Shown in pieces: positions 37,814 to 61,565 of a stretch of 64,000 nucleotides of DNA. How positions within the stretch are numbered: position 1 is the first letter of the stretch; the number at the start of each line of letters is the position of its first letter. This DNA is from Liolophura sinensis (Eukaryota; Mollusca; Polyplacophora; Chitonida; Chitonidae). The notes under the pieces are model-generated. The model ran no database searches and was not told the DNA's origin. It saw nothing but the letters and a program-made list of their open reading frames with translations. The DNA lies in assembly GCF_032854445.1 (NCBI RefSeq), contig NC_088304.1:27411732-27475731 (forward strand). Direction: 5' to 3'. The position numbers were made by a program, and so were the translations under genes.

Positions 37814-38622
37814 CAAAAGGTAATTAAGTTTTGGTATTTCGTACACATTAGTTAATCGCTATGAGATGAAAATTTCACAAACAAGGCCGAAGGAATACTA
37901 AAATAGCCAAAAAATTAATAATATTTTAATACTATTTAATCTGTGATACAGCAATTTGCCGGATGCAGTGCAAGTTATGTGTATGAAAAACTTTTATTTA
38001 ATATTTACGAAATTGAAAGGTTTATAGCTTAATTTTTTGGCCCATCTAATATAATAAAACGATTGAAAATCCTTCACAGCCGTTGTTTTAACTTCACTTA
38101 TCAATAGAATACCTCTTATCCTAACAATCTTAATATACTTTTCGAATTAATTAAAAAAAACATAATTTTTTATTTAGTGTTAATCAAGACAATTTACGGT
38201 TAACCCAAAGCTGATCATGGGGCTGTGCATCTACAGAATATACTCAACTGACCATGTTGGTAGGTTGGCTCATAAGGAAGATAAAAACCCACTTTAACCT
38301 CTGTAGGAAGGTGCCCGATGTTTTCTTGAGGTCCCCACTTGGAAGCCTCACACATAAGTCTGAAGTAATTGGACGATGGGTTATTGAAGTCGCTCTGGCA
38401 TACTTTGAAAAGATAGTCCTATGTGAAGGTACCACATGTTACGAAACATCACACATGTTATCGCGATTTGTGGTTATCCACAAAATTGCTAAGCTGCCAT
38501 GGAATCAGATAAGAGAATGAGTGGGCCACAAAAGCTAAGCTTTTCATTGAGTCCTTGCGGGTGGACACATTATCAGTCACCGTTTCTCACACAACAGAGA
38601 TTCACGCATGTTCTATAATTTG

Positions 38623-38888
38623 GGCCTCCGCGGCTCAGTTGGTTAGCGCGCTAGCGCAGCGTAATAACCCAGGGACCTCTCACCAAAGCGGTCGCTGTGA
38701 GTTCAAGTCCAGCTTATGCTGGCTTCCTCTTCTGCCGTAAGTGGGAATGTCTGGCAACAACCTGCGGATGGTGGTGGCTTTCCCCCTGGCTCTGCCCTGT
38801 TTCTTCCCACTATAATGCTGGCCGCCGTCGTATAAGTGAAATATTCTTGAGTACGGCGTAAAACACCAATCAAATAAATAAATAAATA
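38623..38888 (+). mobile_element. MetaSINE-like, full length
   Basis: Complete plus copy: GGGCCTCCGCGGCTCAGTTG head, GAGTTCAAGTCC B-box-like element, GAGTACGGCGTAAAACACC end and (AAAT)3 tail. Confidence 0.92.
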
Positions 38889-39189
38889 TTCTACAATTTA
38901 GATTAGAGGTCCTTTTCAAATGAACTGTGTACGAGTGGGTACGTTGTGTACTTTCCAGTGCATCATTATTTTATTATTTTGTCAGAAAATTGTTGTTAAT
39001 GTCGAAATATTATTTCTTGTTGATGCTGTTTAAACTATAAAAGATGTCTTCTCAGGAATGTTTATGAGGAAATATGTTCCGATAAATCTGATTACTTATA
39101 GCGACATAAGATAAGCACAACTTAAAACACTGCACATTTTATGGTATTGTGATTATTCATGTTAAACATTTACGATGGCTTTGATCAAT

Positions 39190-39522
39190 GTCCAGTAGAT
39201 CCAGGGTCAACCCTGGGTCGAGTTGCTCCTAAGACCTTAAAAGAGGAAGTTGTAACTTCCTCGCTTGACGTTCAGCATGAAGGGGATAGTGCAAAGACTA
39301 ATTGACCCGTATCAGTATAATGGTTCAGGCGCAGCGGCTTACTTGCCTTCGGTAAGGCGTTTCTGTGAAGCAGCACTAGATAAAAGAGCGGTGGAAATCC
39401 GTCCTGCAAAAAGAAGGCACATTACATGTACTCTCAGGATTCCTTCGTCGTCACATGACTGAAAAATTGTTCAGTACGACGCTAAACCCCAAGCACTCAC
39501 TAACTCACTCATTCACTCACTC
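39190..39522 (+). mobile_element. SINE, second family, with (TCAC)n tail
   Basis: Plus copy matching 10867-11205 from the CTAAGACCTTAAAAGAGGAA block on. The 5' head is not clearly preserved. It ends CAGTACGACGCTAAACCCCA and a simple tail of ACTCACTAACTCACTCATTC type. Confidence 0.75.
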
Positions 39523-41194
39523 GATCTATGTTATTCTAAAGCAGGATAAGTTCTGTACTGATTGCGAAGCTGTGCTCTGTTCTGAACGTGATTAAAAAGC
39601 TGATGTCGTTTTTAAGATCTCCATTCATTGCCAACAATCGTTTTGTCTTTTGTGTTGTTCTAACTAATCTCGAAAAAAACATGTAGGCCTACAGCAAGTA
39701 CATGACCCGTAAGGTTAGTTACAGAGGCAAATTTCCCTTCTTTTGTGAAAAACCACAGAGGATTCCCTGACGTCATAGATGCAGTTGACTAATATTAAAT
39801 TAAAGTAGAGAACGTGGTAAACAACACCTTAGCCATAGAGGATGCATCAGGGAAGTGGGTGTTAATCATAGTAAGTTTGGGATATCTCGATTTTAATTCG
39901 GCACTGTATGGTAAGGTGTCCTGAAATTGATATGGGCGATCTTAATTTTGCAAAAGACATACTTTGCAGCGTGGTCAACTGAGTGATCATGCTTGGATCC
40001 TCAGGGATACTTGAACAACTGGCTTATATACCGTTATTCTAATGGGTAACAATATACATGTAAATGTATCATTGTTACAAAACGCTCAAAGATTCCTTCC
40101 TCAAGAGTTACTAGTTTTGGTCGAGCTGTTCATATAGTCTTTATACATATATAAAACTTATAAATACAATACGTTTTGGGTATTTGTTTCTTCAACATGC
40201 GCTTAAATGCTTAAGTTAGCTTAATAGAACAGCTTGATATTCCAGCTTAATATATATTTTAAATTGAAAGTATGAACGTTATCGCTTAAATCGTAAGACA
40301 GAAGGTACTCGTTCTGGAAAGGATTTCCATAAAACATGACAGGTTACATTTAGCTTCCTATGCATTAGTTTCCTGTTGCCGCCATCTGCTTTTAACCCTC
40401 GTGCATCGAAAAACTTACTAAATTAGTTCATGCCAACACAAACGATAATACGAAGTAAACGTATGTGGTAAACTAATGTAGTTTGTCACGGCACGTTGTG
40501 TAATGATATACATCTTGAGAGCTTCATACAAGACTACCTCAATATTGTTAATGTATTAGTGAAATACATAGTTTTTCCAGCCTATACATGTGCTTCGCAT
40601 TCGTATCAATTAAGGTGAAGTTTAATATCTCGAAAAAAATTTTTTTCGTCCCACTTTAGCCGTTAAAACGGCGATTTGATAAAACGAATGACTCTTGCCA
40701 AACAATGAAACCATTGTGTATGTTAGTTACTGCCCTGGTTTCGATGTTCAAGCTAGATGATCGCCCAGTCTTGTAAAGGTCAAAGAGTTATTTTGTAAGA
40801 AATACAATTACGGTAAATTGCATCTATGTAACGCTGTGAAAGAAGTCTCTGAAGTCTTTACAGGCGTGATTTGATTAAACGAGTATGCATATGCTACCTA
40901 TGTCACTTGGTACATATGTACTTTCTAAAGAACAGAAAAACAATACCCCCTTCGAAATGCATTAAGTCTAAAATGTGTCATGTTCCGCTGTTTTGTTCTA
41001 TGTTGTGTCTAATATCACCTGACATCACCTACTGGTGGAATATTCCGGAAAAACAAGTTTATCGTAGACCCTCAGATAAGCAGCACGGATAGATCTATCC
41101 AGCTCATGGAGTATAATTCAGGTCACATCTAAACTCAAGGTTGCACGCATATTTTCATAGTTGTTTATTATCAGCCGGTGGTTCCACGAGCAAG

Positions 41195-44100
41195 ATGGCA
41201 GCTCTGGCTCTCCTATCCTGTCTAACAGGCACTTTTGCGGCAGGAGCTGACGTTCACTTGTACGTGTCACCGTCAGGAAATGACAACAACAACGGGTGAG
41301 TTTTCCGATATACAATACCATGTATTTAAGCAGCTTTGACTCAGCTATTCTTTTGCAGTACTGTGCGTGTCATTAGCCCACAATTGCAACAACAACGGCG
41401 GGTCAGTTTTAGACACCGTTGTATTATAATGCTTGTGTCACCTTCTGGTGAGAAAAACAACAGATGAGACTTGTGTCAATGTGTTCCTTGTGTAAAATTG
41501 CAAGATACAGCAACCAGAGCAAAATATGAGCTAGCTATGTACATGACTGTAAGTTGCAGTGTAATAATAACAACTGGTAAGTTACCTTTATACAACCCGC
41601 ACGTGTCACTCACCAGCAATGAGAACAACAAAGAGTGATATTTCCCGCTGTCATAATCTGTCCGAAACTAGGCTGTCCTCCTCCCATCCTCTGAAGACTT
41701 TGACGAAAGCAGAATCCAGGCTGTATGATGCGGATGTTAGAGGGAATGGTGAGTCTGTTTCTTCTGATTCTGTCTCTCTACAATAACACTGTTGTCGTCA
41801 CGACTAGCATTATTTCTGACTATTAAGAGAGAGTCAGCCAATTAGCTTTCATATATATTTGACAGGAGTTAAACCCTGTTCAGGGTTATGAATGGTTCAT
41901 TTAAACTGTCGCGGTGAGGTTTGTTGGTGAAGGAATCTCTGAAAATCCTGGAAAACATCTCAGCAATTCGTCATGTACATCAACACCTCCCGCCTAAAGC
42001 CCCAGCTGGACAATCCGGAAGTGCTCGAACATGCTCCTACATAACGTCACTGTTAAATTTCTAGTTTTCAGGTGTAATGCCTTTTTTAATTACTGTAAAT
42101 TCGCATGTAGCTAGCATAAACCTCCGCTTAGTTTGTACATGTATGGTGATATATTGGTCAAATATTTCACTGTCATTGATTTGTAAGAGAAACGTCAAAC
42201 TGTTGGCAGCTCATATGTCCATGGGTTAAAACCACTAGAACCCGTTTTAGAGTCATTTCCATCTCAATATTAATAGCTAAACATAGTCATAAAGTCCTCA
42301 CAAACTCTAATTTCAATTCTCATCTGCGTTGATTATTGCATTTTTGTAAGCTGTATACATCGAGCTGATGAGGGGTTACCACGATGTGACGAGCACGATT
42401 ACATTCACGAAGGAGTACGGCCATCCAATCACGTTCAGGTCCTACAATCACGAAGAAGCTCACGTGGTAAGGAACAACTACGTCTGTAAATGTTTCCGAA
42501 AGTATTTTCAGTTTAAGTATTGCTAGACACTGTGGGGCAAAGGATGTGTCACTTTCTCATGCTGCCAGCTTTGATCAGTAATTATATTTTTTATTCAATT
42601 ATTATATACTTTTGGGGTGTTTTAAGTTGTGTTGGAAATGGGTCTTACAGTTATAGACTTGGAACGTCTCATCAAGATTTACCAGTAGGCCTTGAGGCAG
42701 AGATTTAGTGAAAAGAATCCCTTGGAGTGAGGGGAGTAATGGTTGGATTTTGTGGAGTTTCATAAGTTCTTCTTATTACATCTGGGAAATTCTTTGATTG
42801 TTGTCTAAATTGGAAGTACAAAACTATAATTTAAAATTTGAGAAAGTGCACGAAAAGAATCGTATCTAAAGTCCATCGATATTATACTTTCTCCATAATA
42901 AAAACGGCAATATTGCAAAAGTTTTCCTGAGGCATGTGAACTCAGATATTTGTTTGCCTCTGAAGGTTTTGGATACAAAACTACGTTGTGCAGTACATTA
43001 GCAGCAGCAATCTCAGTCTGCAATTGTATTATTTGCTGTGCGTACAACTGGCGCACTTGCAGGCTCAGTCATCCACAAAACCTGCCGTCTATTAGAAGGA
43101 GACGGAGCCATTACCTTTGAGGTCACGAGTTCAAATTCAACTCTCGCTGGTTCTTACATCACTTCTGTTATGTCCACCAGGTGCTTGTAGGTGGAGAAGG
43201 GCGGCTGCTTACAGCACTATCTGCCCGGCTGCCTTTACTCATAACCTCCTCTGCCATTGTATATTACCCGTATTATTCAAAATTAGGAGATAACAACAAC
43301 TGAAAATAGTTGTGTGTCATTCATTATACAATTAAATGTCTTTTGCTTTCTAACAGAATATGTTTCATAGTTTGTACATACAACAGCATCTATTTATGTG
43401 AACAGACAAAGGTGTGTTTTGACTAATATTTCGCGCATTGACCGTGAAAAATTCTGATTGTTGTTGTCATATTCTGCTTCTTTTCAGACCGGTGGCAAAA
43501 GGTTGGGCGCGTCCCATTTTCACCCTGTCACCAATCCTCATGTCTTACAGGTTATACCGGCTGTCGCCCATCACAAGGTACGAGCATTAACATTGCAAAT
43601 GGAGATTCCTCTCACTCTTGTTATTCCGAGAAAATATCTAGAAATTAGTTGTCATGTATAAAATTTCTATGTATCAGGAACTTTTAGAGCTTTGGAACAA
43701 GAACACAGCATTATGAGACTCAAACAGTGAACAAGTGAGTCCAAGCGAATCATTACAACATCAGTATGATCGCGTATACAGGAAGATTGAATATTCGCTT
43801 TATCTCACCAAAACCACATTCAGCAGCTGCACTTTTACTATATAAAACTCTTGACAACTCTATAGGGGTAACCATTGTGTAACAGAGTTGCCTCCCTAAG
43901 CCCTAAACTCTTTAAGCTAATTTACATGCAAATATGTTAGGTCCATTTACTTAATACAATAAAAGCTGTCTAGAACTGCTTCGGCATAGTAAAATCGAGC
44001 TGTATATTTCCCTAAAATAAGTAATTGACTAAGATATGTTTGTCTACATTTTGCTCCATGGGGATATTTCATTTTTAGAATATGTCCCTTAGTTTATAAC

Positions 44101-47100
44101 TGGACGTGTATACTGAATAGCACTAAAGACATCAACATAAAGTAAAAACTAGGGTACCGAATATAGTGATAATTAGCAAATGGTTAGCAAATTTTCAGTC
44201 TACCTCAAATAGCGTGATCCCGTTTCGAAAAACAACAAATGCAATGTTATGTTTGAAGGAAAAAAACAAATTCATTGCTATTTGAAACAATTTAATGTTA
44301 ATTTAAAAAAACAATCAAGTACAATGCTATTTTTGAAAAACTGTTACATGGATAAATCCTTTAGATGTATTTTCAAAACGCTTATGATAACATCTTTTGA
44401 CAGGTCCGCCAGTTGCGGTTCTCAGACGTAGGAATATCCCTATCTCAGCTGGGACAATTGGACAGATTCGGGTTCTACGCTCAGAGGACGGCACAGTTAG
44501 AGGTCTTTTATAACAGTAAACCTCTCCAGCTCGCCAGATGGCCAAACGACGTGAGTTAACGTCATGCCCTGCAAAGTGTTTAGTCTTATTTTTAAGATAA
44601 TTTGATATCATAAGATACTCTAACGCTTAAGTCTGGTAGACAAAGTCAAGACAGTTGTAGTAAGTCGTCATCATAGTTTAAAATTCATATCAGTTTTATA
44701 AAGTGAAAATATAAATGTGAAAATGAAACGCTCTACAACGCTCATTGGGGTAATATATGTGAGAATAAACACTAACCCCTGCAGGTCTGTTTTGATTTCT
44801 GCTTTCTAAGATATTACCTTCTGCAGTGACAGATGGTTATGTGGAGATTGCTGTATTGAACACAAAGATGAAAAGACGACAGTGCTGTCTTTATATAGCC
44901 TTCAAATACATTTCGATATGATCCTTAAATCACCATGACTGGCACTAGAACAGAATAGGACAGAATAAGTATACTACACCATCGCTGACAACTCATCAAC
45001 TGTGCTATAGTCTATAGAACACTTTGAATTATAGCTAATTATATTCCTTATTTCCAAACACCCAGGGGTCGTATGTTGACGTCATCTCTACACCAGATGG
45101 GGAGAAGGGTCACAGATTTACCTATTCCCCGAGTCTGGACAGTCGAGCCAGGAAGTGGAAGAACGAAAACGATCTCTGGGTCTACGGATTCTGGTAAAAT
45201 GACACAATATTCTACTTTCATTATCCTTATTAATTATGCACACTTTTCTTCCCCGTTGATCCTCTGTTGAACTTGGTTTTAACCATGATATCTCCCACAT
45301 CGTGCGTCCTGCTTTCTTGACGAATATCTCTTCGGGTCTTTTCTACATAACAAAAGATAGTCAAGTGTAACACTGACATCAAATGTACCCGATTGCATTA
45401 CAGGATATGTACAATAGCGACTGTTATATGATTATAAACGCAATACACAAAAATATGATTGTCGGTGAAAAGGAGAATCACTTGGCGTGGCGCTTTATAA
45501 TTCATATCAGACGATCACGTCCAAATTTGTCATTCCATAAAGAAGGTGCATCTGAATGATGTTTTCATCGGGTCTGGATGCACCCAGGGCCGACGGTTAT
45601 ACAATGGCATCTGCTTAAAGTTTGCCTTATGTGTTTGCCCCCTTAGGTACTGGGGATGGGCGGACGACTCTGTCCACGTGACCAGCATTGACACTAACTC
45701 CAGAACGATGACTCTCAATGGAAAAATCTCATTCGGAATGAGACCTGGTTAGTTTGCTTTTCGTCTTAATATATTATTGTTGAATAAGACAAATGCATGT
45801 ACTTTCCTGTCTTGACGTTCTGTCGAGTCCGTTCTTTTTTTCCTTTCTTTTACCAAGAAGATATTGAAATTCTGGATATGTCATGGGTTTCCCCGGGCCG
45901 TGCCCAGTTTCCTCCCACTATAATGCTGACCAAGTGAAATATCCTTAAGTGCGGCGTAAAAAAAAAAACAGTCAAATAAAAAAAAAATACATGTAGTTTG
46001 CGGAATACATTTATAACAAGAATTAATTTATATAACTAATGTTATGTAGCTATACCAAATGTCAAATGCGTTAAGTTTTCTGACATGTTTTCACAGGTAA
46101 AATAGAACCCGGAGCTAGTGCCGGATACAACAACCAAGGCGGTTATTTCAACGTCTTCAATGCCCTGTCTGAGCTTGACCAAGAGGTATACTATGAGAAT
46201 AGTGCACGGTCTTAGATGGGATAACAAGAGTTATTATACCTCATTGGATAACTCTCGATCTCTGTTGGTCGAGAGACGGTCACGTGATATTCCGAAAAAG
46301 ATTTATTTATTTATTTATTTGATTGGTGTTTTACGCCGTACTCAAGAATATTTCACTTATGCGACGGCGGCCAGCATTATGGTGGGTGGAAACCGGGCAG
46401 AGCCCGGGGGAAACCCACGACCATTCGCATGTTGCTGACAGACCTTCCCACGTACGGCCGGAGAGGAAGCCTGTATGAGCTAAACTCGATCTCACAGCGA
46501 CCGCATTGGTGAGAAACTCCTGGGTTATTACGCTGCGCTAGCGCGCTAACCAACTGAGCCACGGAGGCCCCCTTCCGCAAAAGATGATGTACAACTATCA
46601 CCCGCGCCAAGGAATGCAACGTTTCGCTCACAAAATATTATGCTAACTTCCAATGATCACGTGCGTTTATTCCACAAAAGTTATCTCTCTTTGAGAGGGA
46701 TTTAAAGTACTACTCGCAAAGGTACTGTTTTTCTCGGTATAATGAAAGCCCTCGTTGAATATCACTTATCTCGAGCTGACAATTCCTGATGTCCCACCCT
46801 ACAGCATGCACTACCTGGATATTGTCAACTGGAGATATCACATGAAAATCACTTGAGTGCTGACAATTCATGATATCCCATCCAACTGCATGCACTATAG
46901 GTTTTTTTTATACCGCAAAGCAGTGCCCTTGCTCAGTTTGTACATTTCAATGGCTGAATTTGTACGTCCATGTCAGATGAAGGCATCGCCAGGTCGTTTC
47001 TTTTACAAACAAGCACATGCCGGAGAGACCCGAAAGGGAGATAACTGCAGCAGAATAAACACACGTGGTTGCTGGACATTAGCACGAGATCTTTGGCTAT

Positions 47101-49476
47101 TGCCTCGTGGACTTGGGATATTACATTGTGGGCGTGATATTGCTTTCGTTGAGCGCTTTATTGTACACTATGTTTTGCAAAAATATTATGTGAACAAGAA
47201 TCGACCAAAAGAAACCAATAATCACCATATGGGTAAAATCGTAATTATTACATCGATTTGCTGTACATGTTGGACTGGTAGACCCTATTTAACAGTTAGA
47301 AAACATACACTACCTCTTTAGGTGTACATATGTTTATATCATGGTTTCCTTTTCAGGGAGAGTATTATATTGACAGAAAATCGGGTATGCTGTACTTATG
47401 GCCACCGGAGCATTCGGGAACCATCTCCAACAATGATATTATATACGCCTCTATGATTTCCGATATATTCCAGTAAGTTCAGCGGCACAGGTACTTACAT
47501 GTGTTTGTATGCGCCGACCTGGTACACTATAATAGGCGTAGCAGTCACTATTATATCGGATATGTTGCACTGTGTTATTATTTCAGCTATTATTTGAGAA
47601 TAGCCCAAACAATTATCTTTTCACAAATAAATCAGCTTCACGTGTAATAAAGTTTTAAAAATTGCATTTGAAACCTAGAAATAGTACAAATACGAGTTTG
47701 ATTTTTACTGAAAGGAAGTAATTTGAGTTATTCGTGATAAATCCGGAAAACCTTGACTGGATTATAGACTGGATACGGATTTTTGATTCAAAATCTCCGG
47801 TATAGTCCCTATATGACAGCCACAGTGTAACTGTTGTACTTGTGAAGCTTTTTCCACCGCATAGCGCAATGTTTAAATGAAGCTAAGACTCTTGTCTTCT
47901 ATCCAGTGATCTTGTTAAAACAGCTAATGCTGGTGTCCTACTTGAAGAACTTTCTCCAACGTGTTGTCCACTGTTAAATAGACCTGGTAGTTGATGTTAG
48001 TGTCCTACCTGACGAGCTTTGTCCATCGTATTGTCCAGTATTTAAGTGGATCTGGTAGCTAATGTTAGTGTCCTACTTGAACAGCTTTCTCCAGCGTGTT
48101 GTACACTGTTTAAACGGACCTGGTGGGGCTTCCGTGGCTCAGTTGGTTAACGCGCTAGCGTAGCGTAAAGACTCAGGAGTCCCTCACCAATGCGGTCGCT
48201 GTGACTTCAAGTCCAGCTCATGCTGGCTTCCTCTATGGCCGTAAGTGGGAAGTTCCGTCAGCAACCTGCGGATGGTCTTGCGTTTCCCCCGGGCTCTGCC
48301 CGGTTTCCTCCCACCATAATGCTGGCCGCCGTCGTATAAGTGAAATATTCTTGAGTACGGCGTAAAACACCAATAAAATAAATAAATAACGGACCTGGTA
48401 GCTAATGTTAGTGTCCTACTTGAAGAGCTTTCTCCAGCGTGTTGTCCACTCTTTAAATGGACCTGGTATCTAATGTTAGTGTCCTACTTGAACAGCTTTC
48501 TCCACTGTGTTGTTCTAACCACTAAAACTGTTATCATCGATGTCCTGTTACTTCAGTTTTTCGCACGTGTCCTCGATAACCATACAGGACCTTGTGTTGG
48601 AGTATTGTAGACACAAAGCCATAGAGGGGGACAATTTGCATTCGTGTAATTTCGAGAGACTGGAAATCAGAAATACAGGTAAACTTTACAATTAAAAAAG
48701 ATCAGATGTCATACAATAATGTTAAAGGTAAGAAGAATTCATTAGAAGTTCAAAGAAAACTTTTTTATTTCTAAATTACCACGACATTTGTTTTATTGCT
48801 GTATTTTGATTAACGCGCTGAATTAAAAATACAATTATTGTATGTATCATTTAAGTTACGCGTTCTGAAAGAAAATATTACCGATTAGAACATTATATAG
48901 ACGTATATGTGGTATTTACTTCTACAGCGCAAATGATACACTATGCTAAACATGGAATGAAATTCCATTTTTATCTCAAATTATGTAAAATAAAGGGATG
49001 TTTATGTCCTGCTGAAAGACTAGCTCGTATATACCGTAGGGCTACGCCATGCGTGCATGTCTATATCTGATTGTGCAGAGTAAACGTAACATATGTACAT
49101 GTATCTCTTGCTGGAAGGTTCGTATGGCATTGGGATATCCTACAGCACTCACATAACCATCAGACAGTGCGATGTCCACGACTCAGACGGTGGAATAATC
49201 ATCGATGGTAAGTGATCAAACAACTGATGATCATAACGTGGTGCCCGGGTGGTGCCCGGGTTCATTCAGTTGAGTCGTGCCTAAGATTTTAATAATTACG
49301 TCCACATACAGTTTATACAGTTCAGTCTCGTATATATATATATATATATATAACTAAGAATGTATGTAAAGTACGAACTGAAGATCAATTCCTGCAAAGA
49401 GAAGCAGTGAACCAGATCGACCTATTATTATGAATTATTGCATTTTATTATATATATTAATAATTACATATATAAT

Positions 49477-49554
<78 letters not shown>

Positions 49555-49599
49555 TATACGAGACTGAACTGTATAAACTGTATGTGGACGTAATTATTA

Positions 49600-49677
<78 letters not shown>

Positions 49678-52600
49678 AAATGCAATAATTCATAATAATA
49701 GGTCTATCTGGTTCACTGCTTCTCTTTGCAGGAATTGATCTTCAGTTCGTACTTTACATACATTCTTAGTTTTCTGGTGATTTATGTCGAACACCAATCA
49801 AATAAAATTGTCCATTTTCGTTGACGGCTGTTATACTAATGCTTGTTTCGACGCCAAGATGATGAAAGGAGACACTTTCGTATTCAAGACGAATCCAGCG
49901 AAAGTGAAAACCGGAACAAATAGCTATGGATATTTGCTACAAACTTGCTGAAGGAGCTAGACCATTTCTTCCACGATTTTAGTTAATTGTATGATTATTG
50001 CAACAAGTCTTATCTCAAGCAACTTTCGTAGTTCGAAATTCAAAGGTTTGGTGATCAAATTACCACCAGAAACATAGTTCATTGAACTCATTCAATCAGA
50101 AAAAAAATACCTTAAGCTAATGAACGTGCATTTAACAACATCAATCATTCTGAACTGTTTCCACGTCGTCTTCACAAGGAAAATCATAATAGATAAGGTA
50201 GACGTACATATAACATTTTGTAGCTTTTTCATCACTATAATTTTGGTATCCCCATGTTAAAGTCGTTAGGTTGATCTAGGTTTGTAAATCTAACGCCATT
50301 TGGATGTTTGTAGGTCGTGACTTACAAATGTGTAAGCCGCGGCTATACAGCTGTTGATATACGTGTAAGTTCAGGGAGCGCTTTGGAATTGCGTTTAAAC
50401 CACATCATATATGGTGGGAAAAAGCCGATCTGTTCTACATAAAAAAGTAAACACATGGGTAATTATTTTAACTTTCAAAACTCCAAATAATCCTTTCGGA
50501 AAGGCAGCCAAAATTCATAACGTGTAATAAATCCAGGAAAGTTAAGCTTTTCAGTTTCATGTTGATGCTTTTGTTGTATTGTTGTCTTGATTCCAAGGTG
50601 GCACAGAGAATATTTCAAGAAACACGTGATTTTTTTTTTTTTGACTTTTCAGGTGGTAACCGGAAAACACTCAGCCCTTCCAACATCCTCGTGGAGAACA
50701 ATCATATACACCACTTCTCCCGCGCAGGCGCAGTCACACAGCATGGAATCTGGGTCGGAGGTGTGGCCGCTAAAGTACAGTTTAATGAAATCCATCATGG
50801 CCGCTATACCGGGATTTGGTGGTGGGTGAGTAGAAGGTGTAGTCCCTAGAAATGGAGCTTTGATTTATTTATTTATTTATTTCACTGGTCTTTTACGTCG
50901 TTCTCAGGGATATTTCACTTATACGACCGCGGCCAGCATTATGGTGGGAGGAAAGCGGGAAGAACCTGGGGGAAACCCACGACCATCCGCAGGTTAATGA
51001 AGTTCTGTCATTCCCTCTTCTAACGTATTGAAGTGAGCGTAAAAAAACATCCTGTCCACTAAACCCGGTTTCACTTTGTGTAAAAGTGCACCACTCTCTC
51101 CTGTTGCGCTCCAGTGAAAAAAATCAAAGGAGTACACCTCTTGGCCCAGCTTGTTTTAGCCGGGCGGTTCTCCTCATCCTGTAGCAATGCTCCTTGATTT
51201 TCTGGTCATCGTGTCACAGGTAGGAGGCGTTGTGTGTGAACATGAAAGTAGATTTGCCGTGATTATAGTATTGCGTTCTGATGAATAATATTAGTTGCAG
51301 GAAAACGTTTTCCTTCACGTTCACTTCTTAAACCATTTTCGGCATAACAACACCGAATTAAAGAAGCAAAGAAGTTCATATTTCCTTTAAAATGTTCGGC
51401 GGGTGAAACTCAATGACATACTTATCCAGTCGAGTCAATATGAAACGAACCAAGAAGCAACAACTGTACAGTTTGATGAAACTGTAAATATCATGAACAT
51501 CTGAACTGTCTACATCAAGTGTTGATTGTATTTTGTATCATATTGACTAGGGCAATGACAACCTAATATACCGTAACCACATGCATCACCTGTGTATTGG
51601 GTCCAGTGACTGCGGAGGAATACACTCAGGACGAGACTGGACATTTGTAAGTCAAACCTCTCAGTATAGCGTTAGATAACAAAATATGTCATTTCTTATG
51701 GCTTCTCTTCGCATGAATCCATCTCAGTTTCATACTTCATAGAATTTCTTATTTCTGTGGTTGTTTTTATGGAACGTTGTTTTGGGCATTGGCCCATCGA
51801 TTGTTGATCTGGAACGTCCGGCCGGTTGCCGGCTGGTATACCAGTGATTCGGTGCCTAGATTACATCTACTGAGCGGAACAAGGTGCCACACATACAATG
51901 TATACTGTGTTCGTCGTGGACGAATTGGGTACAAGTTTATCATTCTTTGATGAAGAACATGCGCACTCCTTCGTGATCTCATCCAACCTTCTGTTTTACA
52001 GAGAGGCAACTTCATCAAGCAGAACCACATCGAGCACGTGTTGCGATTCTACCCGGGAGCTGACGTCAGAGGCATCATGTTGGATGACGAGTATTCCAGC
52101 GTCACCATCGAGGAGAACGTGTTTCACAACGTAAAGTTCTTGATGAATCAGTTTGCAAAGAGCACACCGCTCCCAACATTAGGTCTTCCATAACTAAATA
52201 AGATATAGAGAGACTAGCCTACTAGGTCGCTATTAGTGTACAATTAGCATTCTTCCGGAAACTTATGATCTTGTTTTATTCTAATTGCTCGTGTAAATGC
52301 GTGTTTTTCGCCCTGACGGATTGCAATGATGGAGGCAAGTTGAACACACAGTTATGGAGTATAAAACAGAGAAAGGATAAACAATCAAGGTATTAAAAAA
52401 ATAATATAAAAACTGTTTTATTAAAAGAACATTTCACTTGGTCGATGGTAAAAATATGGTGGCTTCAGCGGCTTTCGTCGCTGAGAAATCAAGCCTTTTC
52501 CCTGTTGCCGGATTTGTCCGACTAAACAAATAACCTACACACTCACGGGTTTCCGGCTTTGTGTAACGAAGATGCAGCATGTTTTGTTTGCTGATTCTTA

Positions 52601-55600
52601 CATCAATGTAAAGCTATCGAACAAACGTCGTTTGGATTGTTTTTTCCGTGTTTTATATCCAGCTATGGAAAGTTGGGTCTTCTGTCCTAGGCATTGACGT
52701 TATGTACCTTGTTATATATATTAAGTATATATAACGTTCGGATGTTCGGATGATTCTGCCACCTATGCTCTTTTCTGCGATTCTTCCAACGTTTCGTCGG
52801 ACTTCCTCAGATAAGCCACGGACACGCTGTTGGGGCGCTATCCAGTCGTTCCCAGATAATATTTAGACGCATGTTGTTATATTGCCCTTGAGGGGCCTCC
52901 GTGGCTCTGTTGCTTAGCGCGCTAGCGCAGCGTAATGACCCAGGAGTCTCTCACCAATGCGGTCGCTGTGAGTTCAAGTTCAGCTCATGCTGGCTTCCTC
53001 TCCGGCCGTACGTGGGAAGGTCTGCCAGTAACCTGCGGATGGTCGTAGGTTTCCCCCGGGCTCTGCCCGGTTTCCACCCACCATAATGCTGGCCGCCGTC
53101 GTATAAATGAAATATTCTTGAGAACGGCGTAAAACACCAATCAAATCAAATCAAATTATATTGCCCTCAAAGAAGTTGGGAGGATGGATATACTGGAATC
53201 GCTCTGTATGTGCGTATGTCTGTCTGTCTGTAGACACGATTTTGTTCCTGCATCTCCTCCCAAACCACTGTGCTGAAACTTACCATATATCTTGCCTATC
53301 ATCTGAATTTGTCTATGCTTAGGAGTAATGGCAATCGGATAGATATTTTTATAATTACTCCCATTTACGACTTACGAGTAATACTAGTAGTGCTTTTCCA
53401 TCTATTCAGATTTTGTCCGTGTGACTCTTCCGCAAGTACTAAGCCTACTTTCATAAAGCTTACCATTCATTTTCCATATCATCTAAACTCGGTTATGCTT
53501 AAGTTTAATTACAATCGGATAATTATTTTCATAATGGCGTAATGCCTTTGTAATGAATTTTCATGTACACAAATTTTGTCAACGCAACTCCCGATGAAGC
53601 ATTGCACCAATTTCCCTGAAGCTGTGTGTATATCTTTTATATCATCTATAACATCTACATGCGTACTGACAATATCAGTTTGATTATAATTTTTATTTTC
53701 AATTTCTTCTATATATTCTTGGAAATGGAGAGGGATGGAAGGGGAATATTTCTGACATCCGGTTTCCAGTTCACTTTGTGAACTAAGCATTTAGTAATCA
53801 TGATACATTTTGTCCCGTTCAGTGTAAACTTTGATTTGTTCACTTAAATATCCTTAATGATATAAGGCCAGAAGATGGGATTGATGTTGCTTTTTCAGAA
53901 CGAACTCCATCTTAACATTGGAGGAGGCAGAGATAATGTTGTACGTTATAACGTGTTTTATAACGCAACAAAAACCGGCATCGGGATGGACGGACGGGGA
54001 TTAGGTCACACTGGTTTCGCATCTTCCTTAATGGATCGACTTAAAGTGAGTTGTTTTGTGATACTTGTGATCCATTTATATACTTAATTGGTCGCTCTTT
54101 AAAGTCGTGCTCAAGAATTTGTGGGGATGGTGGCCCGTTTTATAGGCAGAGGAACTCAAGTATACATGCTTAACTGTTGACCATTGGGAAGGTTCAGATG
54201 AAAATTTCCAGGTGTCACTTACAGATAAGCACGGTATATTGACGAAAGACGAATGACATTCAGCGAACGTTAGAATACGCAAACGGTCGAGAGCTCTATT
54301 GTCATGAACGCCTCATGACTGGTGAGAGCGGGGAATCTACATATTTGTGCATTTACTTCACTTACTGCTGGTTCATCGGTGGCTCTAAGTTTGTCATTTA
54401 CTGAACAAAATTTGGCAGATTTAACCAAACCGTGATTCGTACATCTATACATCACACTGCCACTGTATACACTGAAAATAGTAATGTGCTAATTTTAACA
54501 GAATGCCTGTTGTCTGAGTGATGCTAGAATGTATTCTGTTATCATAACTCAATAATCTGTCAAATTCACATGATATCCTGCTAGTCTAATAGAACCTTCA
54601 TGCTGAATTAATAGAATATGTGCCTCATAGTTAACACAATAATCTGCAGCAATAGCAGGATACTTTCTAACATCACGGACTTTCTGTTAAAATTATGTTA
54701 AAATTATTTTTTGAGTATAGGTGAAATACTCTTGAGAGTGGCCTCTCAAAAAATAAAAATAAAAAGCATTCTCATATGACCTGACGTCGTCGCTTTGCAA
54801 TAAGGCGTTACTGTCTTTTTAAATTCCTCGAGGAAAAATCAAACATTATGTCCAGGCAGAGCTGACAGAACCACTCAAGGAACTGGTTGTCGCAGCTAAC
54901 GGTAATGCCCGTTCGTCGCATTAATGTCTGACTAAGTTGTGTATTCTGCGTTAGTTTCAAGTGTCATAATGTTTGTAGTGTCATATTTTTTGTTATCTAC
55001 ATCAAGGAACAACCGTACAAAAGCACCATATGGGCAAAGAAGTATCCCAAGCTGGCTGTGATTGACAGCCAACAGCCGTACGCACCACGAGGTAAGCGAA
55101 ATTTGCAATGATGGGGTTTTGCAGTAACACTGCATGCTTAAATAACCATACCAACTTAACAACAGTTTACTTTTTATTAAAGATTTTCATATGTCATTTA
55201 TGTCGATATTAAATTGTTTTCTTCTCAAAACTGATCGGCCAATCATTCTTTTAGTATTTAAGTAAGAGCCAGCCACCGTTGACAATGCCATCGATTAAAT
55301 CTTCTCTTCGTTTAGTCACATGTGTTTTATCGCCAATATCTAAGGGGCTAAAGTTCGCCAGTATGGCTTGTGAAATGTCGGTGGCTTACTATATTCCTAT
55401 CTGCTCCACCAAACACAACATACAGGCATCGCATCGGTGAAACATTCTTGAGTAACACGTTAATCTTCATTCGAGAAAATTTATTCCAAACTATAGATCA
55501 CAAGTTCTTGTCCAGTAGTGATGCGTTTAAAGTCGCCCAGCTGTTAGTGAGCCAGCTGCGGCTTTTCGTCAGCAGGATTCTCGGGTTCCTAACGAATAAC

Positions 55601-58600
55601 GGTGTTTCTCTCTGGTTCCTTCCCATGGTCTTCATGGTTCTTTCTCTTTTATTGTTTAAACCAAAAAGTAGATCAACTAATGCATCAACTAGATATTATA
55701 TATCTGATGACGTATAGGTAATCAAATCTACAAGAACGTCTTCTACGCTGGATCGTCCAAGAGCAAGATCTCTTACCAGGACGTCCATGACATTCGCAAG
55801 AAGGAATACTACGAGATCAGAGATAATCTGTTGGTAATGTCCTCATGTCTTTGCCCTGTTTACGATTCCACATTCAGTCCGTCAAAGGAAGTTATGTTTT
55901 TACCGGCTTTTATTTATCTGCCTGTAATTTTAAAGAAATGATTATGTGCTTTCATTTGTCTGTCTGTGTACGTATAGAAATAATTATGTGCGGATTCGGA
56001 TGAAATTTTGGACGAATAAGAGCTCACGACTAATACGTGCATGTATGCTGATCACCAACAAACTGTAACTACAATTCGCTATGATAAAATGGAACCGAAA
56101 TGCAGAGTTTGGAGGAAATTCGTACATTTCGTTGTGGCGAAAGTTTGCTCCCCTGGATTGTCTGTGTGTTAAACAAAGAATTTCAAGGTCCTGAGGATAC
56201 TATTCAACCTGTATTGTTTAGAGCATTTACCTCTTGTAAAGCTTTTGTTAAAAAATTTAAAAAACAAAACCAAAGCTTTTAATGCACTGTCATTTTTGAG
56301 TACCGTTGCCTTGTAAACTCACGTGTCACATACGTTGCACCACCAGTATGCCCAGCCAGGTGACTTTAACAACCGCGCAGCCGGGGACTACCGCTTAATC
56401 TGCGAGGCGAAAACCTGGGCTCAGCAGCAAGGTGTGGGTCAGCCTCCGACATTGGCGGAGGTCGGTCCTCATCTTCCTTACGGACCTACTTACAAACACG
56501 GTATGACGCAAGCAGTTTCTACCTTGCAAGATAAATAAATAAATTTTCTTTAATTGTCAACGGTAGGAATCTTTCTAACCATCAAAACATGTGGATATCG
56601 TGAATTGCATCCAGTAATCTTAACCACGTTCTTACGTTCTTTTTGCGCCAGAAATCTTCTGCACATCCAATCATTTAAGATCATTCCCAGAATAAAAAAA
56701 TACCATGCTCTGTCTTCACCATTCACAGTTAATCCTTGGAATGAGCTGTAAAATATTATCTAATTTTGCTTAAGTCAACACCCAAGAGTTCCTTTGCCCA
56801 GAATCGAGAAGAATCGTGGTCCAAGCTATTTTCAAGTCCGTCTTGAATCTTCTGTCCCCTGTCGTTGAGGCAATAAACGGATAGGCCATTCAGCTGAGCA
56901 GTAATAATTATTCAAGCAATCCGAACATTTGATGCCCACATATTCACAGTTCCAAGAAGACGTTAATAAGTCAAGTGTTCCAGCTATTGAGCATTTACAA
57001 AGAATGTCTTGCCATTTCACAGCGTAAACAAAGTATGCATTGAGAGATAAAACATTTCAATTTTGTTGCCTTTTTAATGATATTATCATCAGCCAAGTGA
57101 AATGTCCACTTTTAAAATCTATGCATCATGCTGTATGGATTAAGATAAGTCTCATTATTGTGTTTAGTGACCATCCCTCGGAAGACAAACTCGGCATTAC
57201 GTACAGACTGTCACCATTCCACCAGGGCCCCAGCCTCCCATATACCACGAGGAGCTTTTTTGAACGACGGCAGCAGGCCAAACACAGTCACGGACAAAGT
57301 CGGTAGGTGACCAGCAGTTCTATCATGTTGATCACTATTCTCAACTTTTTGCGAAAAAAACCCTCACATACATATTTAAATGGTTTTTCTACACTGAGAT
57401 TGCCTATATGCGCATGTAATCACTTAAGACAGGAAACACTATTCCTTCACGTTGCACAATACAAGTGTCAGCATTTGAACTGTGCACATTAACAGCCCAG
57501 TTTTCAACATATAATGCGAATAGTGTTACAAGTACAACTCCAAAGGACAAGAAAGCCAGAAGTGTCCTTTGTAGTTGGAGTAATGACTGTACCATTTTCC
57601 TGATTCTTCGCTCATTACCCGGGATCGATGTTTGCGTGATCCGTTCTTTTTTAAGATGTAATATGTAGCAGGTAATGTATGAAGTTTAACGCTAATCATA
57701 TGATCTAAACATGATTTTCTTCTTTTTGGCAGGTTGTTGGTTTATAATAACGAAGTGTCCGAACTACCCGAATATGAAGGGGAAACATCGTGACACATAT
57801 GGAGAGCAGCATAACGGGGCTCAACACAGTGAGAAGGCGTGTCTGGCAAGGGCGGCAGAACAGTGGAAGGCTTGTGGTTCACCCAAGGATCAGTCTGTCA
57901 CGGCAGTCTATGGTCCTACAGGTTAGTACACTGTGTAACACAGTGAAAAGTCTTGTCTGGCAAGGGCGCCAGAACAGTGGAAGGCTTGTGGTTCACCCAA
58001 GGATCAGTCTGTCACGGCAGTCTATGGTCCTACAGGTTAGTACACTGTGTAACACAGTGAGAAGGCGTGTCTGGCAAGGGCGCCAGAACAGTGGAAGTCA
58101 TGTGGTTCACCCAAGGATCAGTCTGTCACGGCAGTCTATGGTCCTACAGGTTATTACACTGTGTAACACGGTGAAATGTCTTGTTGGGCAAGGGCGCCAG
58201 AACAGTGGAAGTCATGTGGTTCACCCAAGGATCAGACTGTCACGGCACTCCTTGGTTCTACAGTTTAGTACATTGTGTAACACAGTGAAAAGTCTTGTCT
58301 GGCAAGGGCGCCAGAACTGGGCAAGGCATGTGGTTCACCCAAGGATCAGTCTGTCACGGCACTCCATGGTTCTACAGGTTAGTATAACACAGCGAGGATA
58401 CGTGCCTGGCAAGGGCGGCAGAACTTCACGATTAGCATTATCACTGCCACGGCAGTGTACCGCCTCCTACAGGTTAATATAACACAGCGAGAAGCGTGTC
58501 TGGCTTGCTCTGAAGATCAGTGGTAGGCGTGTGGTTCACCCAAGGATCAGTCTGTAGTTCTTCAACAGACAAGTACATGTATGTAATCTTCTCCACAAAT

Positions 58601-61565
58601 ACCCGGAATAGTTTTGCAAGACGCAAGTGGTTTATTTCTCTGCGGGATACAGCTACTGGATTCCGTGTGTATACATCATCACTGTACAGTGCTACAAACA
58701 TATTCTACTATATCACAACGTCCATTACACTTTTCATACTTACACATATCTATATAAAACCACTTATTTTCAAGACAAAAAATAATATAACGTTTGGTAC
58801 TTCGGAAGAGGGCTTAAACAATGTTGAAAGGTCTCGGCCATTTTGCTTCGAGGTGCTTGGTAAATCAACCTTTAATGTGAAATCCGTACAAGACCATAGA
58901 AAACGTGGTGTGAGAGAAATCGAAAACGCACTGTCGCGTGACTGGTGCCGCCGCGGTATATGAGCTAAGGGAAAACCGTCTCTGCGGAAAGAACTGCGTT
59001 CTCGGGTTGTGGAAATAACTCACGACCGGTTAATATTGCTTATACGGTGACGCTTTGGGTTTCTCAATATGGGCGACTTTGCTTACTGTGATCTGTGATA
59101 TTTCCGTTATATAACATGGCAAACGTTAAAAGGTATACTTTCCAACCTTATGTATGATATCTTATCAATGTATATGTGACTTTGGTCTAGTGTCGTTTTT
59201 TGAAAGTCCTTCTTTGTTCTGAACGCAGTTATTGCAAACTGACACAAAGTTATCGAGATAGACATTGAAGCAGCGTTCTACGCTTTGTGACATCGTCTTT
59301 TGTGTTGTGATTGGAGGGGTGATCATAATATGCTGTCCATGTTCTAACCGAGCATGTGGTGCAGGGAAAAATTCATTCATAGGGGTAGAGTCAAATCTCT
59401 AGTGTTTAATATGCATAAAGTAAGCCAAGAAACCATGAATTTCGGTTTTTCTTGGTAACCAAAATGATTGCATTGTGCAATGGCATCATGCCATGTGCCG
59501 GATTATACAGTATTCGAGTTACCTCCCTTCTGTCCACCAGGTGCATCCACGATCGGCGGGGACGGATGTTTTATGGCGAGTTATGGCTGCCCAGGACGCG
59601 GCTGGACCAACAATGGTGAAATAGGGCGAGACACGTGGGCCGAACAGAACACAGGAGCTGCCCATAACGAAGAGGCATGCCTGTCCCGGGCCGTGGCGCA
59701 GTGGGACTACTGTGGGAATGGAAGGGACGACACTGTAGTCAGCATATATCGACCAACAGGTGAGGGAGAAGTAGGTCCCTCGATTAAGTTGAGCACAATA
59801 TATCGCCAGCAGCCTGCTAAGTGTGCTTTGCCGATAGATATCTACAATTTCGTAGAGGTAATGCATTACAATTGAGGTAGAACGTCAAAGTCACGCCTGT
59901 GTTAAAAACCCCATTTCGACGTTGACATGTGAACCTTTATTTCAGATTTCGTGAAACTTGGTGCACATCATGTCTACACTAAAGTTGTAAACTGAATGGT
60001 TAAAAAATTGGTCTGAAAGTCTTGGTCATGCAGACGTTATAATTTCTTAGAAAATTTGCTTTTTTCACATTTTTCAATTTGTTTAATGCAGAGCATTTTA
60101 ACGATAAGGATCTATGCCACTCATAGGTCGTGCATGTGCTAAATCTTGTTCAAATATATCATGCATTTTTCTTGCTGGTGATCATTGAAGCTTGACACTG
60201 AGTTTTATAACGTACAGGTAATCTTAGCAGATTTGATATGATAATAAATGTTCAGACTAGTCTTGGTCACATCCAAATCTTGTCTGTAAAGGAGTTAGTA
60301 TTCTTTTCCATTGTTAATATGCCACGATTGCGAAAGTTGGTGACAGATTAAATTTTCTCATCATTTTGTATATAAGATTGATAATTATACATAATTAATT
60401 CATAAATATTCTTAAATCCCGAATTATGGAAACCTGGGACGGTTTTAGTGTTTGCATTTATTTATTCTGTGTTAACACTTATGTGGGGGCGATCAAGATC
60501 ATGATTGAAGTTTATAGCTAGAATCTCTTCATTAAAAGACTCCTGTCAAGATTTGTATGCTTCGATAATGCTAATCGTGCTGTGAAAACAGTTGATATCA
60601 GATTGAAAAATGTTTCACTGCGGATATACCTATGTGGTATGAGTTAGTCATCAATTTAAAATCTTGTTATAATTACTTAGAATTATTGTGTCTCATGTTT
60701 GCGCATGCGTGCAACAGGTGCCCGGAAAATTGCTGGTTACGGTTGTTGGATAGAGGTTCCGAAATGTCCCAATGACCATAACGTCAAGTCTCTGTTCTTC
60801 GATGCATGGGGAGATACAAATCAAGATACAGGTACGAATGCATGGCGGCACATGGATCTATGTACTTACGTATGGTGATGGATGTGTAAAAGGCTATTTA
60901 TTTATTTATTGTTTTATTTAGAAACCTATAATAATAAGTTTGACAATATTGCGCACACTAAATGATAGGCCTTATTGCACACGTCTATCAGTAAATATAT
61001 ACATATGTGTTTCCAGAGACATGACGGAGATTACAAGCTTACCCTATAAAACAGACAGAACAAAAGTTGTGAACTGATGACATTCTTGTCGAATGAGGAT
61101 GTGTGATCTAATGCTGCTTTTGTTTGTCTATTTAATTGATTAGTGTTTTACGCCGAACTCAAGGATATTTCACTTACGACATCGGCTAGCACTGTGGGAG
61201 GAAACCGGGCAAAGCCAGTGTGAAACCTTCCTGGGGAGGTCTGCAGTTATCAAGCTGGGGAGAGGCTCGCCAGTCAGTGTGCTGCGCTAGCATGCTAAAC
61301 ACTCGGCTAGGGAGCCCACGTGGTTTTGTATTATCTTAAAAATTTGGTAACTTCTTGGAGATACTATAGTTTCTCGTAATATGTTAGAAATATTTTCGAT
61401 TATCACGTTTTGTGCCTGTGAAATGTCCCAGCTTATGTTTCAGGCGCGGACGAGCTGTCCTGTTTCTCCAGGGCGACCTACTACTGGCACCACTGTGGCT
61501 CTGACAAGTCCTCTCCAGTTACGGCACATTACCGACCCAAAGCCACCTCGACAACAGTACCATAA
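41195..61565 (+). CDS. Gene B: secreted GH141-like beta-helix protein with three four-Cys modules
   Basis: Rebuilt from 23 exons: 41195-41295, 41672-41748, 42351-42466, 43488-43577, 44404-44550, 45066-45193, 45647-45747, 46097-46185, 47357-47472, 48557-48678, 49118-49207, 50653-50825, 51551-51646, 52002-52130, 53899-54045, 55007-55091, 55718-55833, 56347-56500, 57168-57302, 57733-57921, 59541-59759, 60718-60831, 61444-61565; 951 aa, all GT-AG, phases continuous, stop TAA. A signal peptide ([17 protein letters not shown]) leads into LYVSPSGND, the usual opening of beta-helix hydrolases. Residues about 35-690 match the GH141-like layout: [61 protein letters not shown] and YPKLAVID. D470, D479, D510 and D511 are candidate catalytic acids. 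A linker (693-737) and three four-Cys modules (738-947) follow. ATG context is AAGATGG. It is paralogous to gene A (20 of 30 residues identical in exon 4). Substrate and activity are unproven. Confidence 0.87.
41382..41646 (+). repeat. Decayed copies of the exon 1/donor junction in gene B intron 1
   Basis: Intron 1 carries at least two degenerate echoes of the last ~45 nt of exon 1 plus its 5' splice site: around 41385 (CAACAACAACGGCGGGTCAG), and around 41602 (CACGTGTCACTCACCAGC, then AATGAGAACAACAAAGAGTG). The exon itself reads TACGTGTCACCGTCAGGAAA, then TGACAACAACAACGGGTGAG. They are not usable exons. Confidence 0.65.
45880..45992 (+). mobile_element. MetaSINE-like, strongly truncated
   Basis: Central and 3' part only (CATGGGTTTCCCCGGGCCG, TTTCCTCCCACTATAATGCT, GTGCGGCGTAAAAAAAA) in gene B intron 7, with an internal deletion of the GGCCGCCGTCGTAT segment. 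Confidence 0.8.
46303..46571 (-). mobile_element. MetaSINE-like, full length
   Basis: Complete minus copy in gene B intron 8: (TTTA)n, GATTGGTGTTTTACGCCGTA, GGAAACCGGGCAGAGCCCGG, and the head ending CTGAGCCACGGAGGCCCC. Confidence 0.93.
46771..46905. repeat. Short direct duplication in gene B intron 8
   Basis: GCTGACAATTCCTGATGTCC...GCATGCACTA is repeated about 80 bp later as GCTGACAATTCATGATATCC...GCATGCACTA. No function is evident. Confidence 0.75.
47915..48524. repeat. ~68-bp tandem repeat in gene B intron 9, split by a SINE
   Basis: Five units of about 67-69 bp built on TAGCTAATGTTAGTGTCCTA, CTTGAAGAGCTTTCTCCAGC and GTGTTGTCCACT. A full SINE interrupts the array between the third and fourth unit. 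Confidence 0.9.
48125..48388 (+). mobile_element. MetaSINE-like, full length, with target-site duplication
   Basis: Complete copy with head GGGGCTTCCGTGGCTCAGTT and tail (AAAT)n. It is flanked by an 11-bp direct repeat ACGGACCTGGT at 48114-48124 and 48389-48399, which is part of the surrounding tandem-repeat unit. The array therefore predates the insertion and the SINE moved by target-primed retroposition. Confidence 0.95.
49290..49772. repeat. AT-microsatellite complex with two inverted repeats in order A-B-A'-B'
   Basis: In gene B intron 11. Block A (49290-49333, ending CAGTTTATACAGTTCAGTCT) returns inverted at 49558-49603. Block B (49352-49450, including GTACGAACTGAAGATCAATT and GAGAAGCAGTGAACCAGAT) returns inverted at 49672-49771. 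(AT)n tracts fill the three gaps between blocks. At least one base difference is seen (ATCGACC versus ATAGACC). The order is not that of a simple palindrome. Confidence 0.9.
50861..50996 (-). mobile_element. MetaSINE-like, 5'-truncated
   Basis: Minus copy in gene B intron 12 starting (TTTA)n TTTCACTGGTCTTTTACG and stopping at ACCATCCGCAGGTT, before the head. Confidence 0.85.
52893..53158 (+). mobile_element. MetaSINE-like, full length
   Basis: Complete copy in gene B intron 14. The head is GGGGCCTCCGTGGCTCTGTT and the end is CGGCGTAAAACACCAATCAA with an ATCAAATCAA-type tail. TATATTGCCCT flanks it on both sides (52876-52889 and 53157-53167 region), consistent with a target-site duplication. 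Confidence 0.92.
53262..53720. repeat. Degenerate ~170-bp tandem repeat in gene B intron 14
   Basis: Three related units share an order of AAACTTACC/AAGCTTACC, TATCATCT, TATGCTTA and AATC(G)GATA...TTTATAATTA elements, spaced roughly 170-180 bp. Old and diverged, non-coding. Confidence 0.5.
57822..58556 (+). repeat. Tandem array of the 3' half of exon 20 plus its splice donor
   Basis: Starting inside exon 20, a 114-bp unit (AACACAGTGAGAAGGCGTGT ... CTATGGTCCTACAGGTTAGT ... CTGTGT) repeats at 57822, 57936, 58050, 58164 and 58278. More degraded units begin near 58385 and 58480. Each includes the coding end of the four-Cys module and the GGTTAGT donor, but no acceptor, and in the gene's frame each has TAG right after the donor GGT. 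A long open frame through it is in another frame and is an artefact of the 38-codon period. Confidence 0.93.
61125..61317 (-). mobile_element. MetaSINE-like, degenerate
   Basis: Minus copy in gene B intron 22: TGATTAGTGTTTTACGCCGA, ACTCAAGGATATTTCACTTA, GTGGGAGGAAACCGGGC, then a decayed head. Confidence 0.75.

Follow-up and report, generated by a model that had tools for sequence, protein, structure and literature searches.

Two predicted genes in a stretch of chiton DNA raise the question of what a large, apparently secreted beta-helix protein does in this animal and whether it could be a glycoside hydrolase. The stretch, from Liolophura sinensis, spans 64,000 nucleotides (nt) and is referred to here as the window (C10:27411732-27475731). 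Our analysis suggests that the two genes, A and B, likely encode GH141-like right-handed beta-helix glycoside hydrolases of the chiton, which are probably secreted.

Structure of genes A and B

Exons were located by a six-frame comparison of the window with itself, which revealed two parallel sets of coding blocks. Gene B extends from 41195 to 61565 on the plus strand and gene A from 5248 to 32580 on the minus strand. Each contains 23 exons and 22 GT-AG introns, and they encode 951 amino acids (aa) and 947 aa, with stop codons TAA (61563-61565) and TGA (5250-5248), respectively. The splice sites of the two genes are at matching offsets, unequal by whole codons at the exon 19 acceptor and the exon 17 donor, and the 22 introns per gene have identical phases, all of which are phase-consistent. 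In both genes the first open stretch harbors one in-frame ATG, at 41195 in B and 32580 in A, and polyadenylation-like signals are found 82 nt (B) and 42 nt (A) downstream of the stops. The genes are arranged head to head, with their start codons 8.6 kb apart and a decayed third copy, J, inside the gap. An earlier note on this DNA had treated both proteins under the interval 41195..61565; the exons of A instead lie outside that interval, on the minus strand, with the decayed copy between the two genes.

The A and B proteins are 60% identical over 951 aa. This identity, the purifying selection between A and a further copy, G, and the full-length homology to bacterial proteins (both described below) exclude chance as the source of the reading frames, and A and B are confirmed as true protein-coding genes. 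The motifs quoted in the earlier note occur in the spliced proteins, and both genes have the architecture that it described, in which a signal-like start and a helix domain are followed by three four-Cys modules. Its claim of a signal peptide is borne out as far as a hydrophobic N terminus, with a best 11-residue mean hydropathy of 2.1-3.0 in six copies, a value that reflects hydropathy only and no dedicated predictor.

Homology of the helix domain

The A and B proteins are matched by Pfam Beta_helix with E values of 3.6e-18 and 8.9e-22. A tblastn search against plasmids returned 12 records, the best from Paenibacillus cellulositrophicus (27.7% identity over 97% of the query, E 2e-54), in which the relative adjoins carbohydrate ABC transporter genes and a GH2 gene. 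When GTDB was scanned with A and B alone, no relative was found among 46 pattern matches; with bacterial sequences added, the scan yielded 196 relatives among 229 pattern matches. The best 80 of these 196 were retained, headed by Planctomycetota proteins at 35 and 37% identity, and the best relatives show 34-37% identity over about 600 aa. These proteins belong to a bacterial beta-helix family (Planctomycetota, Lentisphaerota, Verrucomicrobiota, and others), termed here the GRDWT family, which is homologous to the chiton helix over its full length and contains both aspartates discussed in the next section. Many of its members harbor RWPN, GEYYxD-like, GRDWT, and GGGRDN motifs as found in the chiton proteins. 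RWPN is invariant in all 80 non-chiton rows of our alignment, which comprise 78 of the retained GTDB loci and two plasmid proteins. Comparison of five chiton helix domains with the bacterial family by hhalign gave an E value of 6e-140 over 624 columns.

Searches against solved structures connect the same domain to GH141, a family of polysaccharide-cleaving enzymes reported chiefly from bacteria. With the helix of A as a phmmer query, the sole PDB match was 9rx2, a "Parallel beta-helix repeat protein" (E 0.0015). A mixed profile, built from copies A, B, D, and E (see below for D and E) and two bacterial proteins, matched 9rx2 with an E value of 1.5e-28 and 5mqp, the GH141 alpha-L-fucosidase BT_1002, with one of 1.2e-9, while a profile of 38 bacterial and archaeal relatives matched them at 4.8e-69 and 3.2e-30, respectively. 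Thus, 9rx2 is the best solved-structure match of the mixed and bacterial profiles, although it shows a gap at the GRDWT loop in the mixed-profile alignment; "9RX2" is not mentioned in the open-licence literature searched. In addition, hhalign of the five chiton helix domains against a set of six GH141-like plasmid proteins gave an E value of 6e-38 and a probability of 99.95; four of the six score above the cut-off of the Pfam GH141_M model. On these sequence comparisons the helix domain is homologous over its full length to the bacterial family and to GH141-like proteins, in agreement with the GH141-type layout that had been proposed for both genes, and the Pfam Beta_helix and PDB profile matches predict a right-handed beta-helix fold.

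Putative catalytic aspartates

In BT_1002, excerpts of PMC12786026 describe D523 and D564 as essential and as the likely acid/base and nucleophile, and a passage of PMC5593877 reports that the xylanase Xyn141E retains the pair as D540 and D577. (The 5mqp chain index equals the published BT_1002 number plus 5, as judged from an equal spacing of 41.) In a joint alignment of 6 chiton copies, 18 proteins chosen from the 80 non-chiton rows, 10 GH141-like proteins, and BT_1002, residues D470 and D510 of gene B are located in the columns of D523 and D564, and both columns contain aspartate in 35 of 35 rows. The same register is obtained by hhalign with six of the ten GH141-like proteins and, at a score of only 5.3 bits, by the mixed-profile PDB alignment. 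Among the 80 non-chiton rows, the D470 column is aspartate in 78 and glutamate in 2, while the D510 column is aspartate in all 80. Both residues are kept in all six aligned chiton copies, including a divergent copy, P. Of four acids singled out in the earlier note, these two therefore correspond to the BT_1002 pair; the others, D479 (aspartate in 42 of 80 rows) and D511 (61 of 80, and asparagine in copy P), are not universal.

The register is bridged by the ten GH141-like plasmid proteins, which were taken from 10 of the 16 records that matched a BT_1002 fragment. These proteins are 26-41% identical to BT_1002 and present aspartate at the D523 and D564 positions in 10 of 10 cases. One of them, L128, a haloarchaeal beta-helix protein encoded at 1154-3340 of a Halomontanus rarus plasmid, is 41% identical to BT_1002 and would be a helpful subject for structural studies. 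The bridged register is preferred because BT_1002 and L128 have the YTLGSQP and YTDEGSS motifs in common and L128 aligns to the chiton-bacterial profile with 226 bits. An alternative register, displaced by one coil, was set aside, as this bridged alignment and the profile-profile alignment support D470/D510.

Several results weigh against a GH141-like enzyme with this catalytic pair. The bacterial profile, when aligned to 5mqp, sets BT_1002 one coil away from the D470/D510 register; a local profile alignment is also one coil off, and its score of 28.9 exceeds those of all 200 shuffles (best 26.6). The preferred register hence depends on the bridging sequences. A profile made from A and B only gave no PDB match at E 0.01, and the profile of 38 relatives also matches, in part and far more weakly, a GH120 xylosidase and polysaccharide lyases. 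The Pfam GH141_M insertion model is below its cut-off in both proteins (16.9 and 16.3 bits versus 27), with only 31-33 of 156 positions matching, while the Pfam model of the non-enzymatic beta-helix family NosD exceeds its threshold of 23.6 with 31.1 and 37.5 bits. Finally, 20 neighbor genes from 11 loci of the bacterial relatives show no consistent polysaccharide-degradation context. No family was matched at E 1e-5 by 6 of the 20; besides transporters, regulators, peptidases, and oxidoreductases, the rest comprise various others, for example a Wzz-type exopolysaccharide protein, a chitobiase C-terminal domain, and F5/8 discoidin domains. Where the earlier note looked to profile searches for GH141, the PDB fucosidase was recovered by the mixed profile, but in Pfam it was Beta_helix and NosD, and not GH141_M, that passed their cut-offs. 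Among the 38 relatives, GH141_M matches 29 and NosD 32 at E 0.01. The NCBIfam NosD model, applied to gene B, is far below its cut-off there (20 bits versus 300), and the NCBIfam search otherwise gave weak matches only, far under cut-off. The xylosidase match, PDB 3vst ("Xylosidase"), which we take to be a GH120 beta-xylosidase, covers N-terminal coils with an E value of 3.3e-10 for the bacterial profile, its best stretch comprising just 107 profile positions.

A gene family in the chiton genome

The conserved helix core was searched against the chiton genome (632 contigs, 609,464,459 bases), where it matched 28 exons: 26 lie on C10 at 27.317-27.466 Mb and 2 on another scaffold, C8. The copies were resolved by exon mapping, which covered 186 kb on C10 and 30 kb on C8, and by a purpose-built spliced aligner guided by A and B. 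The C10 cluster contains six gene-length copies (A, B, D, E, G, and H) and three decayed fragments (F, I, and J). Copy G, on the plus strand, is complete, encoding 947 aa with no stop inside. Copy H (C10:27381252-27405379, minus strand) is full length, with a single in-frame stop in exon 5 that marks either a recent pseudogene or an assembly error. Copies D and E, on the minus strand, consist of the helix only. The divergent copy P is located on C8 at 43.438-43.467 Mb; its model starts with GTG, which leaves its start unsettled. All 22 introns of A are common to B and, according to the spliced aligner, to G and H, and 18 of the 22 are common to D, E, and P. The aligner also placed extra introns, one in H and several in D, E, and P, mostly beyond the end of the homologous part.

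Among the closest copies, A, G, and H, the ratio of nonsynonymous to synonymous substitution rates (dN/dS) amounts to 0.22-0.23 for the helix and to 0.11-0.16 for the tail (0.23 and 0.11 for A-G), so these copies have been under purifying selection. Synonymous sites are saturated in the pairs A-B, D-E, A-D, B-D, and A-P, for which no dN/dS is given. In a midpoint-rooted tree of 86 rows, from which copy H and two of the 80 loci, L054 and L116 (length over 760 aa), were left out, the chiton copies form a clade of their own, separate from the bacterial and archaeal relatives on a long stem (1.14), and no donor for this clade was identified. Copy P lies outside the other five chiton copies (support 99).

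Decayed fragments resembling J are also present on C10 at 27.347-27.352 Mb and 27.407-27.411 Mb.

The cysteine-module tail

Both proteins end in three four-Cys modules, with the spacing C-x6-C-x(27-29)-C-x10-C in six of six. The linker and modules 1 and 2 are phase 1-1 exons, and module 3 begins at a phase 1 intron and is encoded by two exons. Phase 1-1 exons are the pattern expected of shuffled extracellular modules. No Pfam match above cut-off was found for the 11 modules scanned (best E 0.022), nor any match in the PDB (best E 0.42). When the genome was searched with the modules of B, 32 candidates were scored, of which 24 matched at E 0.001; 21 of these belong to the C10 cluster, and the other 3 are located within P or next to it. 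In the chiton genome the module was thus found only in and beside the helix genes. The tail sets the chiton proteins apart from the GRDWT family: a module model detected no module across 92 loci from bacterial and archaeal relatives, where its best E value was 0.27, while it recovered the modules of the window with E values as low as 1.9e-31.

Copies D and E end within exon 19, where A and B keep a Cys, and would thus produce tail-less proteins. Because the outgroup copy P also has such modules, D and E probably lost a tail that their ancestor possessed. Modules run on for ~7 kb beyond the third module of P (C8:43469096-43474301, plus strand, L127); either P has more than three tail modules or a further gene lies downstream.

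A tandem repeat overlaps module 1 of B and the following intron (57823-58384, plus strand), with 4.9 copies of a 114-bp unit at 91% matches. The unit combines 3′ sequence of the module 1 exon with the first stretch of the intron, and its later copies are partly decayed. Such a repeat is a possible route for multiplying module exons.

Proposed function and alternative explanations

If A and B are secreted GH141-like hydrolases, the proteins would enter the secretory route, and D470 and D510 would share a single helix groove and act on a polysaccharide as acid/base and nucleophile, in the manner proposed for D523 and D564 of BT_1002. The Cys modules may tether the enzyme to its substrate, to mucus, or to a surface. 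Because modules 1 and 2 are symmetric phase 1-1 exons, they could be easily gained or lost by exon shuffling. This chiton is a grazing animal, and the likeliest setting would be the digestion of algal or biofilm polysaccharide. Compared with the characterized GH141 enzymes, namely the alpha-L-fucosidase BT_1002, the endoxylanase Xyn141E, and the Wf141 endo-fucanases, the chiton helix is homologous and has the same predicted catalytic aspartate pair, but its GH141_M match is below cut-off, the fucanase signatures are absent, and it is encoded by an animal gene with introns and a Cys tail. As GH141_M falls below cut-off and the fucanase signatures are lacking, both formal GH141 membership and any particular substrate are putative.

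A narrower form of this proposal is that the chiton enzymes are endo-hydrolases of fucan or fucoidan, invertebrate fucoidanases having so far been defined by activity. Excerpts of PMC12786026 describe the Wenyingzhuangia GH141 enzymes as endo-fucanases. Fucoidan-degrading activities of molluscs are described in the part of an older review consulted (PMC6245444), and in passages of a 2025 review (PMC11943901) the fucoidanases of two molluscs stand outside any family, which makes the chiton genes candidates. However, the three GH141*6 fucanase signatures are all missing where the predicted catalytic residues lie in A, B, D, E, G, and P: xHQxWxxxD and xDGx24NxxxxNx are absent from these proteins, and for xRxDx, RxD occurs elsewhere in them and never at those residues. 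Moreover, no sulfatase or fucosidase was found at E 1e-5 among the 20 neighbor genes of the bacterial relatives. We consider this narrower form unlikely. Equally unlikely is a broader reading, in which an animal lineage has an expanded GH141-like hydrolase clade of its own, with an undescribed four-Cys anchoring module, whose members count among the missing genes for the endogenous fucan-degrading activity of grazing molluscs. Given the grazing lifestyle and the unclassified mollusc fucoidanases, a fucan role is worth testing, and we claim nothing beyond that.

Somewhat less probable still is that the enzymatic role was lost and that these are secreted structural, mucus, or shell-matrix beta-helix proteins. 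Many secreted mollusc proteins are structural, the non-enzymatic NosD family passes its Pfam cut-off, and the Cys modules could serve to cross-link or anchor. The retention of both aspartates in six chiton copies and the purifying selection on A, G, and H argue against this reading. It is improbable that the fold acts as a polysaccharide lyase or epimerase. Such activities occur in other beta-helix families, and the chains to which the bacterial profile has weak matches include rhamnogalacturonan lyase, PL6, and chondroitinase B (E 4e-4 to 0.1). These matches, however, span part of the helix and fall short of those to 9rx2 and BT_1002 by 25 orders of magnitude or more. Bacterial contamination or a recent transfer can be dismissed as highly improbable: the non-chiton relatives found in the prokaryote collections searched are all bacterial or archaeal, but the copies are located on chromosome-size scaffolds, have 22 introns in common within the family and 18 with the copy on the other scaffold, and form a single chiton clade with a stem of 1.14. 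An ancient transfer may nevertheless have occurred.

No title among the open-licence matches listed reports an animal GH141 gene, and the sole match to "GH141" and "mollus" in that literature, as far as its excerpt goes, concerns GH141 genes of isopod gut bacteria; a paper found there on beta-helix proteins, gastropods, and horizontal transfer deals with alginate metabolism in bacteria. For the hydrolase reading, the chiton genes form a defined set whose predicted catalytic pair can be put to the test by expressing the proteins and mutating single residues. The adjacent bacterial family is widespread (196 relatives were found in one scan), and a single assay would be informative for both groups.

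Coordinates and other features of the window

The upper end of copy J in Table 1 is approximate, as it is set by a weak exon 16 match (E 0.04).

Table 1. Positions of the exons of genes B and A, the putative catalytic codons, and decayed copy J in the window
Feature	Position	Strand	Remarks
B exon 1	41195..41295	+	ATG, hydrophobic signal-like N terminus, helix domain start
B exon 2	41672..41748	+	
B exon 3	42351..42466	+	
B exon 4	43488..43577	+	
B exon 5	44404..44550	+	LARWPND motif
B exon 6	45066..45193	+	
B exon 7	45647..45747	+	
B exon 8	46097..46185	+	with exon 9, stretch of sub-cut-off Pfam GH141_M match
B exon 9	47357..47472	+	GEYYIDR motif
B exon 10	48557..48678	+	
B exon 11	49118..49207	+	
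B exon 12	50653..50825	+	predicted beta-helix coils; Pfam Beta_helix best stretch, residues 402-556
B exon 13	51551..51646	+	[11 protein letters not shown] motif
B D470 codon	51608..51610	+	column of BT_1002 D523
B exon 14	52002..52130	+	[11 protein letters not shown] motif
B D510 codon	52083..52085	+	column of BT_1002 D564
B exon 15	53899..54045	+	IGGGRDN motif
B exon 16	55007..55091	+	
B exon 17	55718..55833	+	
B exon 18	56347..56500	+	helix domain end
B exon 19	57168..57302	+	linker, phase 1-1
B Cys module 1, one exon	57733..57921	+	phase 1-1
B Cys module 2, one exon	59541..59759	+	phase 1-1
B Cys module 3, first exon	60718..60831	+	
B Cys module 3, second exon and stop	61444..61565	+	
A exon 1	32480..32580	-	ATG, signal-like N terminus
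A exon 2	31666..31742	-	
A exon 3	29600..29715	-	
A exon 4	28996..29085	-	
A exon 5	28084..28230	-	
A exon 6	24049..24179	-	
A exon 7	23696..23796	-	
A exon 8	20344..20432	-	
A exon 9	19753..19868	-	
A exon 10	19014..19135	-	
A exon 11	18492..18581	-	
A exon 12	18055..18227	-	
A exon 13	14610..14705	-	D471 codon at 14646-14648
A exon 14	13925..14053	-	D511 codon at 13970-13972
A exon 15	13233..13376	-	
A exon 16	12731..12815	-	
A exon 17	12243..12349	-	
A exon 18	11801..11954	-	
A exon 19	10496..10630	-	linker
A Cys module 1	9296..9484	-	
A Cys module 2	6594..6809	-	
A Cys module 3, first exon	6211..6324	-	
A Cys module 3, second exon and stop	5248..5369	-	
Decayed copy J	33965..39914	-	matches to exons 17, 18, modules 1, 2, 3b; in-frame stops

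Outside the exons, the window contains several repeats. A long TA-type simple repeat is located at 49476-49690, in intron 11 of B. A dispersed repeat family is present in both orientations in introns and spacers, for example at 4.8-5.1, 17.0-17.2, 31.8-32.4, 46.3-46.6, 48.2-48.4, and 52.9-53.1 kb. Two further stretches are duplicated, 10938-11235 with 39256-39592 and 15570-16653 with 32742-33503, and are 53-84% alike when translated.

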